Shown here: in pieces, positions 46,060-57,860 of the stretch | How the letters are laid out: every line of letters starts with the position of its first letter | Numbering within the stretch: the first letter of the stretch is position 1 | Source: Haloglomus litoreum | Lineage (GTDB): Archaea > Halobacteriota > Halobacteria > Halobacteriales > Haloarculaceae | Assembly (NCBI RefSeq): GCF_029338515.1 | Contig: NZ_CP119988.1 | Coordinates: forward strand, 186,001-250,000 | DNA length: 64,000 nt | Direction: 5' to 3' | Program-made: the position numbers and the translations under genes | Notes under the pieces: generated by a model | What the model was told of the DNA's origin: nothing | What the model saw: only the letters and a program-made list of their open reading frames with translations | Database searches by the model: none

Positions 46060-46180
46060 GGTTCCGTCGGAGCGCTAGCGTCCCCACACCTCCCCGCGCC
46101 AGCGGCGAGGTGTTCCGGCACGCTCGCTAGCGCTCGCGGCCTCTACGGGGGCCGCTGGCGCGCTTCCTAATCTCGGAACC
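46060..46180 (+). repeat. Dispersed ~122-bp element, copy 1
   Basis: The element is bounded by GGTTCC (46060-46065) and GGAACC (46175-46180). Inside it, GCGCCAGCGGC and GCCGCTGGCGC form an 11-bp inverted repeat. A 63-bp core from ~46081 is identical to the copy at 57738-57860. Between the copies, differences cluster in the loop-like positions. No ORF. It is either a MITE-like element or a structured RNA. Confidence 0.8.
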
Positions 46181-46362
46181 TGCCAGTGGACCAACCGCTC
46201 ACCGGCCGGGAGCGAGTGGCGCAGCGCGGACGCGCAAGCCCGCGTGACCTGGGGAAGGGCAGGGTTGCCGCGAGCCGTCCCAAACCACGTCGGGCGGGAC
46301 TTTCAACAGAGTCTGGTCGTTGTGGCTGTCGGTCCCGTCGTAACGAGAGCCAGAATCCTCGT

Positions 46363-47529
46363 CTAGCTCAGGTCGAACTTCTCGGCGGCCGTCTGCATGT
46401 CCTTGTCGCCGCGGCCACAGAGGTTGACCAGGAGCGTGTCGTGACGGTCCTCCTCGGCCAGTTTGCAGGCCAGCGCGATGGCGTGGGACGGCTCCAGGGC
46501 GGGGATGATGCCCTCGGCCTCGCTGAGTTCGCGGAAGGCGGCCAGCGCCTCGTCGTCGGTGATGCCGTGGTACTCGGCGCGCCCGAGTTCACGCAGTGCG
46601 GCGTGTTCCGGACCGACGGCGGGGTAGTCCAGCCCGGCGGATACCGAGTGGTTCTCCGTCTCGTCGTCGATGACGTGGGTCTTCATCCCCTGGAAGATCT
46701 GGGGTTCCTCGCGCTCGGTGACCGAGAGCGGGGCGGAGTGGTGGCCCGAGTCGAGGCCCTTCCCGGCCGGCTCGGCGCCGTAGAAGGCCACGTCGTCGTC
46801 CTTGAAGGCGTGGAACAGGCCGATGGCGTTGGAGCCGCCGCCGACGCAGGCGACGCAGGCGTCGGGCAGGTCGCCGTGCAGTTCCTGGACCTGCTCGCGG
46901 GCCTCGCGGCCGATGACGGACTGGAAGTGCCGGACCATCCGGGGGAACGGGTCCGGGCCGACGGCGGAGCCGACGAGGTAGTGGGTCTCCTCGGTGTTCT
47001 CGATCAGGTCCTCCATCGCGGCGTCGACGGCCTCGGCGAGGCCCTCGTTGCCGCGGTCGACGGGTTCGACCTCGGCGCCCATCAGGCGCATCCGGAAGAC
47101 GTTCATCTCCTGGCGCTGCATGTCGTGGCGGCCCATGTAGACCGTCGTGTCCAGGTCCAGCAGGGCACCGACCATCGCCGTCGCGGTGCCGTGCTGGCCG
47201 GCGCCGGTCTCGGCGATGAGGCGCTCCTTGCCCGCGCGTTTCGCGAGCAGGGCCTGCCCGAGCGTGTTGTTGAGCTTGTGGGCGCCGCCGTGGAGCAGGT
47301 CCTCGTGCTTGAAGTAGATGTTCGCGTCGTAGCGCTCGCTGAGCGTCTCGGCGTGGAAGACGGGCGTCGGGCGGCCACCGAAGTGCTCCAGCAGGTACTC
47401 GAACTCCTGCTGGAACTCCTCGTCGTCTTTCAGCTGGTCGAACGCGCCCGCGAGTTCCGCGAGCGGCTCCTCCAGCGGCTCCGGGACGTGTCGACCGCCG
47501 TACCCCTCGAACGTGCCTTGGTCTGCCAT
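46363..47529 (-). CDS. trpB: Tryptophan synthase beta chain
   Basis: A 388-residue PLP enzyme that condenses indole and serine to tryptophan. The family start GYGGRHVPEPL, the Schiff-base lysine in HGGAHKLNNTLGQA, the catalytic region AETGAGQHGTATA, the PLP-phosphate loop CVGGGSNAIG and the C-terminal end VNLCGRGDKDM are all present. It groups with the TrpB1 type. No trpA or trpC is adjacent, although haloarchaea usually have trpCBA together, so this copy is isolated. A TATA-like CTTTTAGCC (47551-47559, minus) supports the ATG. Confidence 0.95.
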   Translation of the reverse strand: MADQGTFEGYGGRHVPEPLEEPLAELAGAFDQLKDDEEFQQEFEYLLEHFGGRPTPVFHAETLSERYDANIYFKHEDLLHGGAHKLNNTLGQALLAKRAGKERLIAETGAGQHGTATAMVGALLDLDTTVYMGRHDMQRQEMNVFRMRLMGAEVEPVDRGNEGLAEAVDAAMEDLIENTEETHYLVGSAVGPDPFPRMVRHFQSVIGREAREQVQELHGDLPDACVACVGGGSNAIGLFHAFKDDDVAFYGAEPAGKGLDSGHHSAPLSVTEREEPQIFQGMKTHVIDDETENHSVSAGLDYPAVGPEHAALRELGRAEYHGITDDEALAAFRELSEAEGIIPALEPSHAIALACKLAEEDRHDTLLVNLCGRGDKDMQTAAEKFDLS

Positions 47530-48026
47530 ATCGAGCGCGCGAGCGCCGTGGGCTAAAAGCTACTGTGTGAGTGGAACGCCGACGGCTCGGACATGGACGA
47601 AGTCGACCGTGCGGGCGCTTCCGTGTGCGCTCCCGCGCGTGCGAGGGGAGCGCGGGGTGGCTGCGTGGGCTCCGGGCGAGAGCCAGCCCCCACACGCGTC
47701 GGCCCCGCTGTTCCGGCGTGTGACACCGTCACGCGCTGATTCCACCGTCGCCCGGCGCTGGATAAACACCCCGGTCAATTCGGGCAACAGCGATACCGGG
47801 TGGGAGACGCAAGTCCGGGGTGAGTGCGGATTCGTCGTCGTGGGCCCCGGCGCTGCCGTAGCCGACCCCGCTGGCCTTCGACCCCGCCGGCCCCCACCGC
47901 CATGGCGTGGTAGCCGGCGCCCGCCCGCTCGCCGCCGCATCGCTCTGACACTGTTTGGTTCTCTCTGGTAACGAATGGTTTCAGAACCCAATCTTTATAT
48001 GTACTCGCGACGTAGGAGGGAGTACA
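47530..48026. promoter_or_regulatory. 497-bp divergent region with the 48027 promoter and a palindrome
   Basis: The left end holds the trpB promoter. The right end holds a strong TATA, CTTTATAT (47993-48000). The perfect inverted repeat GTACTC (48001-48006) and GAGTAC (48020-48025), 13 bp apart, covers the predicted start of transcription right before the ATG at 48027. An SD-like GGAGGG (48015-48020) lies inside it. Between, I see no gene; GC-rich sequence around 47840-47930 may fold, but not as a tRNA. Confidence 0.5.
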
Positions 48027-48731
48027 ATGGCAGACAGCAACTCTCCGTTCGGCATCGCGTTCGACGTACAGCGCAGTGCGATCCAGACCACGCAGGACGC
48101 CGTCCACACGGGCGTCAACATCCAGCGTGACATCAACGAGGCCCTCGTCGACTCCATCGAGCCGACGCGCGAGGTCTCCGAGAGCGGCGCCGACCTCGTC
48201 CGCTCGGGCGTGGAGGCCTACCTCGACGCCGTCGAGGCGGCCCTCCCGAGCGACCAGGACGTCTTCGGTGACCTCCGCGAGAGCATCGACGAGCAGCTCG
48301 ACACCATCGCCGAGAACCGCGAGGAGGCCGCCGACCAGCTGGAGGAGAACCTCCGCGACGGCGCCGACTCCGTCGACGAGTTCCTCGCCGACTTCCTCGA
48401 GAACCTGGACGAGCAGGTCGACTCCCTGCTCGAGTCCAGCGAGGACCTCGAGGGCCAGACGGTCGACGCCCTGGAGGAGCTCCAGGACCAGATCGAGGAG
48501 CTCCAGGACGAGCTCGAGAGCCGCGGCGACGAGTTCGAGGAGCAGGTCGCCGAGCAGCTCGACGGCCTCTCCGAGAACTTCGAGGACGGCGCCGGCCAGC
48601 TGAGCGAGTCCATCGAGGACGCGACCCAGCAGCTCGAGGACGCCGCGGACGACCTCCAGCAGCAGGTCGACGAGGTCTCCGACGACATCCAGAGCCAGGT
48701 CGACGACGTCTCCGAGGACGTCAGCGCGTAA
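48027..48731 (+). CDS. Acidic coiled-coil, phasin-like protein
   Basis: A 234-residue, extremely acidic protein that is helical almost throughout. Residues 1-45 (NSPFGIAFDVQRSAIQTTQD...) form an amphipathic segment related in pattern to the N-terminus of the protein at 25261-25917. The rest is heptad-rich coiled coil with Glu/Asp/Gln/Leu (LEELQDQIEELQDELESRGD). This composition fits a phasin-like granule protein or a structural coiled coil; no PHA synthase is in the window, so the role is open. The TATA at 47993-48000, ~27 bp upstream, indicates strong leaderless expression. Confidence 0.75.
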   Translation: MADSNSPFGIAFDVQRSAIQTTQDAVHTGVNIQRDINEALVDSIEPTREVSESGADLVRSGVEAYLDAVEAALPSDQDVFGDLRESIDEQLDTIAENREEAADQLEENLRDGADSVDEFLADFLENLDEQVDSLLESSEDLEGQTVDALEELQDQIEELQDELESRGDEFEEQVAEQLDGLSENFEDGAGQLSESIEDATQQLEDAADDLQQQVDEVSDDIQSQVDDVSEDVSA

Positions 48732-57134: not shown

Positions 57135-57140
57135 GGCGAC

Positions 57141-57485
57141 TCACTCGGCGGCCCGCGCGGTCATCGCGCTCCCGGCGCCGGCGCCGAACGCCGCCAGCCC
57201 GATGACGGTCAGCGAGACGACGAACACCGTCCCGGCCGGGGCGTCGACGGCGCTCTGGAGGGTCACGGCGACGTAGGTCGTCACGCCGGCGAACGCGCCG
57301 CCCCAGCGGCCACCCCGCTCGAACAGCGGGAGCGCGTCGCGCTGGCCGTGGACCGCGACCCCGGCGGCGACCCACGCGACCGCGAGCGTCGACAGCAGGA
57401 ACGGGTCGGTGACGAGGAACCGGTACGCGAGCGCGGTGACGGCGGCGCCGACCGCGAGGCCGACGAGCCAGGAGCGGAGGGCCAT
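57141..57485 (-). CDS. Four-helix membrane protein, unknown
   Basis: A 114-residue hydrophobic protein with about four transmembrane segments (WLVGLAVGAAVTALAYRFLV, LLSTLAVAWVAAGVAV, GGAFAGVTTYVAVTL, VFVVSLTVIGLAAFGAGAG). No family recognised. It is convergent with the PUA gene, 6 bp apart. The longer frame upstream of the ATG at 57485 enters the repeat island and is not coding. Confidence 0.65.
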   Translation of the reverse strand: MALRSWLVGLAVGAAVTALAYRFLVTDPFLLSTLAVAWVAAGVAVHGQRDALPLFERGGRWGGAFAGVTTYVAVTLQSAVDAPAGTVFVVSLTVIGLAAFGAGAGSAMTARAAE

Positions 57486-57737
57486 CGGGTCGTTGCTTCT
57501 CCGGCCCGCGACGTAGGTCCTGTGCCGACGATGGAATGCGCTTGGCTGCTCGCTCTGTGATGGTGACAGCCAGAACGGAACCGTGTAGAAAGCCCCCGCC
57601 CGCTCGACCGGCCGGGAGTCGCTGCGCTCCTCGCTCGCGTTGCTCGCTGCGGTGCTTACTTCCTCCGGGTCGGGTCGAGGCGGGCGGCCCCTTTCAGTCC
57701 CGCCCTGTGGCCTGCCGTACCGAGCGATGCGAGTGGT

Positions 57738-57860
57738 GGTTCCAGCGGAGTGTTGGTGTCCCCACACCTCCCCGCGCCAGCGGCGAGGTGTTCCGGCACG
57801 CTCGCTAGCGCTCGCGGCCTCCACAGCGTGGCCGCTGGCGCGCTTCCTAAGCTCGGAACC
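57738..57860 (+). repeat. Dispersed ~122-bp element, copy 2
   Basis: Same orientation and ends as 46060-46180: GGTTCC (57738-57743) and GGAACC (57855-57860), and the same 11-bp internal inverted repeat. A core of ~63 bp is identical. The flanking DNA also shares blocks (the 57619-57659 segment and CCCCTTTCAGTCCCGCC at ~57688-57704). Confidence 0.8.

Follow-up and report, generated by a model that had tools for sequence, protein, structure and literature searches.

The element in the window and its copies

The window, i.e., the whole stretch of 64,000 nucleotides analysed from the 4.70 Mb genome of Haloglomus litoreum, carries two look-alike copies of a short element on the plus strand, each running from GGTTCC to GGAACC, as a first-pass annotation had described. 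The mutL gene of the window has its nearest relatives in Haloglomus species and a halobacterial MAG. Copy 1 (positions 46060–46180) is 121 bp long and copy 2 (57738–57860) is 123 bp long, with covariance-model matches of 129.4 and 137.6 bits, respectively. The 11-bp internal inverted repeat reported earlier, GCGCCAGCGGC/GCCGCTGGCGC (stem P2 of copy 1), was found in both copies, and a further inverted repeat, GAGCGCTAGCG/CGCTAGCGCTC, in copy 1 only. The identical core given as 63 bp exists, but its measured length, the longest identical run of the two copies, is 64 bp. A 36-base pattern from the 5' part of the core matched twice in the window, against 0 matches expected from shuffling, and the similarity of the copies is not due to composition. 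The copies had been considered free of open reading frames; a codon-usage gene caller indeed predicted zero genes at either copy, but mechanical ORFs do cross both. The core folded as a single strand with z-scores of −3.6 to −6.0, and its reverse-complement strand folded almost equally. The extent of about 122 bp proved too short, since the likeness of the copies continues past it on both sides, the actual unit being a larger one built of modules.

The description as a two-copy element was also superseded. By blastn, 161 bp around copy 1 matched dozens of sites in the host genome, which holds about 45 copies, and a covariance model built from 36 copies gave 45, 42, 39 and 9 matches in four Haloglomus genomes. 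The core appears to be restricted to this genus: among the 59 genomes searched by blastn, the 55 from outside it yielded at best weak, short partial matches with E values above 1e-4. No match was found in viral contigs (exact pattern search) or in phages (blastn), and matches in plasmids of other haloarchaea were limited to the outer hairpin or a short flank. No Rfam family matched the element at gathering or permissive thresholds. Neither the core family nor the haloarchaea-wide outer hairpin module is described in the literature searched, and none of the titles and abstracts seen for publications mentioning Haloglomus concerns repeats.

Structure, covariation and genomic context

Covariation was evaluated on 104 copies, 101 of them distinct. 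The consensus structure was formed in 96.8% of cells compared with 83.6% when the partners were shuffled, and the covariation score was 0.326 versus 0.084 for shuffled partners (the observed value was reached in 0 of 500 shuffles), with slid partners scoring 0.018 to 0.053. This very strong covariation bears out the earlier claim that the stems stay paired while the sequence changes, and similarity confined to compositional bias would have given neither such covariation nor so many copies. In the 12-bp central stem, 1217 of 1246 base pairs (98%) were Watson–Crick, with 9 G.T and 11 A.C, and the arms fell into five to six interchangeable classes (GAG, TCG, GGG, CAG, CGT) with almost no intermediates. 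Unpaired blocks such as CCCCACACCTCCCC and GGGGAAGGGCAGGG were invariant. Inserts of 47–65 nt, present in 10 of the 104 cores, were all located at the apical loop, each insert itself forming hairpins, and one type of tip insert is the small repeat seen at 45936–45998 of the window.

All 59 copies in genomes G001 and G002, a count that includes orthologous copies in both, lie between predicted genes, with a median gap of 829 bp. The neighbouring genes are convergent, divergent or tandem, and tandem genes have the element in the same direction 14 times and against it 16 times. No TATA-like motif was found within 70 bp of the 104 copies on either strand.

A structured non-coding RNA, with the copies transcribed and a fold of about 122 nt (or about 300 nt) kept by selection, would account for the very strong covariation, for the invariant unpaired blocks and for the changes between near-identical orthologs, which avoid the conserved columns. 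RNA under selection is expected to tolerate G.U more than A.C. A G.U excess was present in two weaker helices of the core strand (51 versus 18 A.C), whereas the well-supported helices P1, P2 and P4–P6 had no wobble excess (10 G.T versus 19 A.C). An RNA is further disfavoured by the absence of an Rfam match and of an upstream TATA-like motif, by the random orientation relative to genes, by the strictly intergenic placement, by the presence of about 40 divergent copies per genome and by the almost equal folding of the opposite strand. The word "structured" in the earlier proposal of a structured RNA was supported, but promoter, Rfam, orientation and wobble evidence did not favour the word "RNA", and we regard this reading as distinctly improbable.

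Composite anatomy

The oriented alignment places the core in the middle of a unit of 296–305 bp in 29 copies. The 5' part of this unit consists of CCCTTTCAGTCCC[G/A]CC or CCCTTCGAGTCCGCCA and a spacer ending in GCGTGGT, directly before the core, and the 3' part consists of GGCCGGGAGCGCGTGG...CCGCGCGACC.GGGGAAGGGCAGGG followed by GGACTCGAAGGG or GGACTGAAAGGG. The unit has inverted CCCTTT/AAAGGG ends, the core within it inverted GGTTCC/GGAACC ends, and the whole is usually enclosed by two large inverted outer hairpins, of type A (GTAGAAAGCCCCCGCCCGCTCGACC...GGTCGAGCGGGCGGCCCCTTTCAG) or type B (CTACGAAGCCCTCGCGCTCTCG...CGAGAGCGCTCGCCCTTCGAG). The left and right modules were also seen at sites lacking the core.

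The left outer hairpin of copy 1, as read from the sequence, is of type A (45847–46016, plus strand), with the arms GAAAGGGGCCGCGCGCTGAG (45847–45866) and CTCAGCGCGCGGCCCCTTTC (45997–46016), and the module has matches throughout the genome and the order. Inside it lies a small double-hairpin repeat (45936–45998, plus strand) with 26 matches in the genome, which recurs in the tips of other core copies. The core is accompanied by the motif CCCTTTCAGTCCCGCC and the spacer ending in GCGTGGT (46010–46059, plus strand) and followed by the right inner module GGCCGGGAGCG...GACCTGGGGAAGGGCAGGG (46181–46309, plus strand), which elsewhere also occurs without a core; the right outer hairpin has shrunk to GGGACTTTCAAC. 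For copy 2, the left outer hairpin is again of type A (57585–57704, plus strand; foot GTAGAAAG, arms GAAAGCCCCCGCCCGCTCGACC/GGGTCGAGGCGGGCGGCCCCTTTC, together with CCCTTTCAGTCCCGCC), with half-matches in plasmids of other haloarchaea. The core is followed by an alternative right inner module, GTGCGTGCCAGCCCCGTCAG...GGCGGCTGGGGAGG (57861–58133, plus strand), and by a right outer hairpin of type B, CTCGAAGGGCGAGGCCGGTGCAC ... GGTGCAGCGGCCGAGGGCTTCGTAG (58134–58328, plus strand). This second inner module, unrelated to the usual one, was also observed at loci L006, L011, L012, L149 and L165; it either substitutes the usual right module beside the core or stands without a core.

Several further arrangements of the modules were observed. 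The double-hairpin repeat of 45936–45998, about 55 nt (CCGGAAATC..GATTTCCGGGAT..ACGAGAGAGCTTCGCTCTCTCGAACCA), is nested in the loops of other hairpin modules, and its tip occurs in two orientations (CTTCG in 4, CGAAG in 3); inversion of hairpin tips was considered on this basis and, with only 4 and 3 copies, is not relied on. A solitary piece of a type B outer hairpin adjoins mutL at 53740–53920 (motif at 53765–53784, minus strand), and a form similar to its foot, CTTCGTAGGCGTCCCT, is found again at 58315–58345. About 150–230 bp outside the core of L206/L226, the 5' arm of an outer hairpin plus about 50 bp (GTTGAAAGCCCCCGCCCGCTCTCGCTGCGATGGAGACCGCCACCATAACCT) is repeated in tandem, in a phase that differs between species.

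The outer hairpin extends well beyond Haloglomus. Of 59 haloarchaeal genomes, 34 contain its motif CCCTTTCAGTCCCRCC, with as many as 61 occurrences in a single genome, and the same motif read backwards gave zero matches. In distant families it closes equal hairpins, including minimal forms without a loop module. The haloarchaea-wide module GAAAGCCCC...GGCCCCTTTCAGTCCCRCC (L282–L299) ranges from loopless mini-hairpins to forms of >150 nt, with nested CTCGCTGCGCTCCTCGG segments. GTAG precedes 23 of 102 type A feet, and CTAC is found at 83 of 160 type B hairpins.

Evolution at orthologous sites

A G002 copy was found at the orthologous site for about 23 of the 30 G001 loci fetched, and many G000 copies are likewise orthologous. 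The identity of the core at these sites is bimodal, with 11 of 20 G001/G002 pairs at 90–100% and 9 at 70–83%; the lower class differs as much as unrelated copies do, the paralogs of one genome having a mean identity of 73.5% and a maximum of 93.6%. The four-fold sites of the neighbouring genes diverge by 17%, and the near-identical class is therefore far more conserved than neutral DNA. Of the 75 changes that separate the near-identical pairs, variable unpaired columns hold 59 and the 51 conserved columns only 4, and this scarcity of changes in conserved columns could reflect ordinary selection for a function. Identity also switches inside the composite, in a patchy manner: in L251/L255, L215/L241 and L247/L239 one side is 99–100% identical and the other is at paralog level, and composites differ by 0–2% where unswapped. 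Selection on the entire composite sequence is disfavoured, because, at other sites, the same regions tolerate about 25% divergence. Ectopic conversion from an existing copy of the same genome is similarly disfavoured as the source of the swaps, no within-genome pair exceeding an identity of 0.94. The genome that carries a swapped copy held no near-identical donor, or recombination partner, for it, which points to divergent relatives as putative donors.

Both window copies are missing at the matching place in H. halophilum. At the region of 57738 this species has a 170-bp spacer and also lacks a small gene; next to trpB, on the side that faces copy 1, it has a different gene. The presence/absence differences at L245/L265 and L258/L275 look like deletions with microhomology, an example of such microhomology-like loss being 317 bp between CCCGCC repeats. 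The clearest comparison of an occupied and an empty site, L005 versus L263, one of few informative sites, is largely clean and without target duplication. Target-site duplications, which the first-pass annotation had suggested looking for, were not seen, and no insertion event was captured, the presence/absence sites being either explained by deletion or without target duplication.

The composite might be a selected DNA-architectural or gene-boundary site (a substrate of a nucleoid protein or of Mre11-Rad50, or a transcription barrier) kept at intergenic positions. Positions conserved across species with about 17% four-fold divergence, invariant blocks, exclusively intergenic placement and the 0–2% difference of unswapped composites are what such a site would predict. 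The species, however, differ in presence and absence, every gene orientation is equally used and the core is absent from genomes outside the genus, and this reading was judged very unlikely.

Search for a transposase

No transposase of the few families tried, DDE and TnpB genes included, was found between the module ends, none of the DDE transposases found lies within 3 kb of a listed copy and no parent transposon with matching ends was found among the few transposase families searched. One TnpB gene lies about 400 bp from L012, outside the composite. An origin from RAYT or IS605 was rejected, as the genome has a single Y1_Tnp gene, whose locus is without any module. This Y1 transposase, the only one found (L201, G000:3182596-3183959), and a TnpB gene make up an ordinary IS200/IS605 element, the one pair examined, whose end palindromes (CCACGACTAAAGTCGTGG) are not shared with the modules. 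Two inverted composites at G000:389690-392479 were likewise rejected as the ends of a compound element; they enclose an ABC transporter gene and no transposase.

The earlier alternative of a MITE that moves as a unit corresponds to a classical family in which a DDE transposase, now extinct or unrecognised, acted on the terminal inverted repeats. The inverted ends, the uniform unit length in the 29 copies, the intergenic position, the lack of coding capacity and the expansion at genus level are all consistent with it, and the repeat is likely to have spread as a unit. A MITE in the strict sense was not supported, given the lack of a target-site duplication in L005 versus L263, of any DDE transposase found within 3 kb of the listed copies, of a parent transposon in the few families searched and of near-identical recent copies, together with the interchangeable inner modules. 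A classical MITE family is thus quite unlikely.

Proposed mechanism and significance

The element is probably a non-autonomous palindromic DNA module that spread earlier in Haloglomus and is now stable, being reshuffled at its hairpins. As such, it would be a non-coding repeat module with a fold of nested hairpins, either as a single strand or as a cruciform, its structure presumably acting as DNA. An inverted pair of outer hairpins, common to Halobacteria, encloses interchangeable inner modules, of which the core is one. A trans-acting mobilising activity may have inserted hairpin modules beside other hairpins, or into their tips, which would have multiplied them within Haloglomus. The core now stays put, and recombination or repair at the hairpins would keep the arms complementary and swap segments between divergent versions. 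The complementarity of the arms would then stem from hairpin-directed correction and not from selection on RNA. Against this reading stand the absence of an observed insertion event, of a transposase flanked by the modules among the few families tried and of a same-genome donor for the swapped copies, as well as the G.U excess in two weaker helices and the sparing of conserved columns. Gene conversion was reported to be very efficient between the genome copies of Haloferax volcanii (PMC11276520), and "switch repeats", repeat-mediated deletions and deletion-coupled insertions for Haloquadratum (PMC3119063); the processes needed are therefore known in haloarchaea.

It is also conceivable, albeit unlikely, that the composites are modular hairpin DNA found throughout Halobacteria and independent of any transposase, which grows by insertion at the tips, has its complementarity maintained by hairpin-directed repair and forms hot spots of recombination at which entire modules pass between sister species. 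Such an exchange would explain the identical-or-unrelated pattern at orthologous sites.

The results suggest that a dispersed DNA repeat can show very strong covariation while lacking other signs of RNA function. Covariation is normally taken as evidence of functional RNA, and caution is advisable in structure-based RNA discovery. The family can be aligned over more than 100 copies, has orthologous sites in three species and falls into two clear classes of identity, and so offers a natural test case for the copying, correction and exchange of palindromes in archaea.

Comparison with known systems

One close resemblance is to SMR-A of Haloquadratum walsbyi (PMC3119063), with which the element shares the length of about 110–120 bp, inverted ends that match no transposon found, the absence of target duplications, a copy number in the tens and an association with the palindromes of other repeats. 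SMR-A copies are commonly >95% identical, whereas those of the Haloglomus core are about 74% identical and covary. Furthermore, SMR-A inserts into IS605/PATE palindromes (PMC3119063), while the core has a fixed hairpin context for which no relation to IS605 was found; it sits between hairpin modules, and no empty target was found. The PATEs of Haloquadratum (PMC3119063) are similarly transposase-free, palindrome-bearing and mosaic, with core deletions and targeted insertions. They lack terminal inverted repeats and have near-terminal palindromes in common with IS605, in contrast to the inverted ends of the Haloglomus element, whose modules share no palindrome with the one IS200/IS605 pair examined (L201).

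REP, BIME and REPIN elements and GTAG palindromes (PMC3733652, PMC3116915) are also intergenic hairpin repeats arranged in mosaics and inverted pairs. GTAG often precedes the type A outer hairpin, as it does in GTAG palindromes, yet only at the minority of feet given above. GTAG-REPs are accompanied by RAYT, which was not found here, and the Haloglomus unit is much larger and multi-hairpin. A RAYT-type Y1 transposase is flanked by repeats, whereas the one Y1_Tnp gene belongs to a TnpA/TnpB element without modules. Archaeal REPs have been surveyed with RepRanger (PMC12306157), haloarchaea not being among those covered. MITEs are comparable in being short, non-coding and dispersed, with inverted ends, and differ from the element, for which no target duplication, parent transposon or recent copies were seen. 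Because tested defining features fail for each of these kinds, the element is not classed with any of them; it works like the haloarchaeal small mobile repeats, the PATEs and the mosaic REP elements of bacteria.
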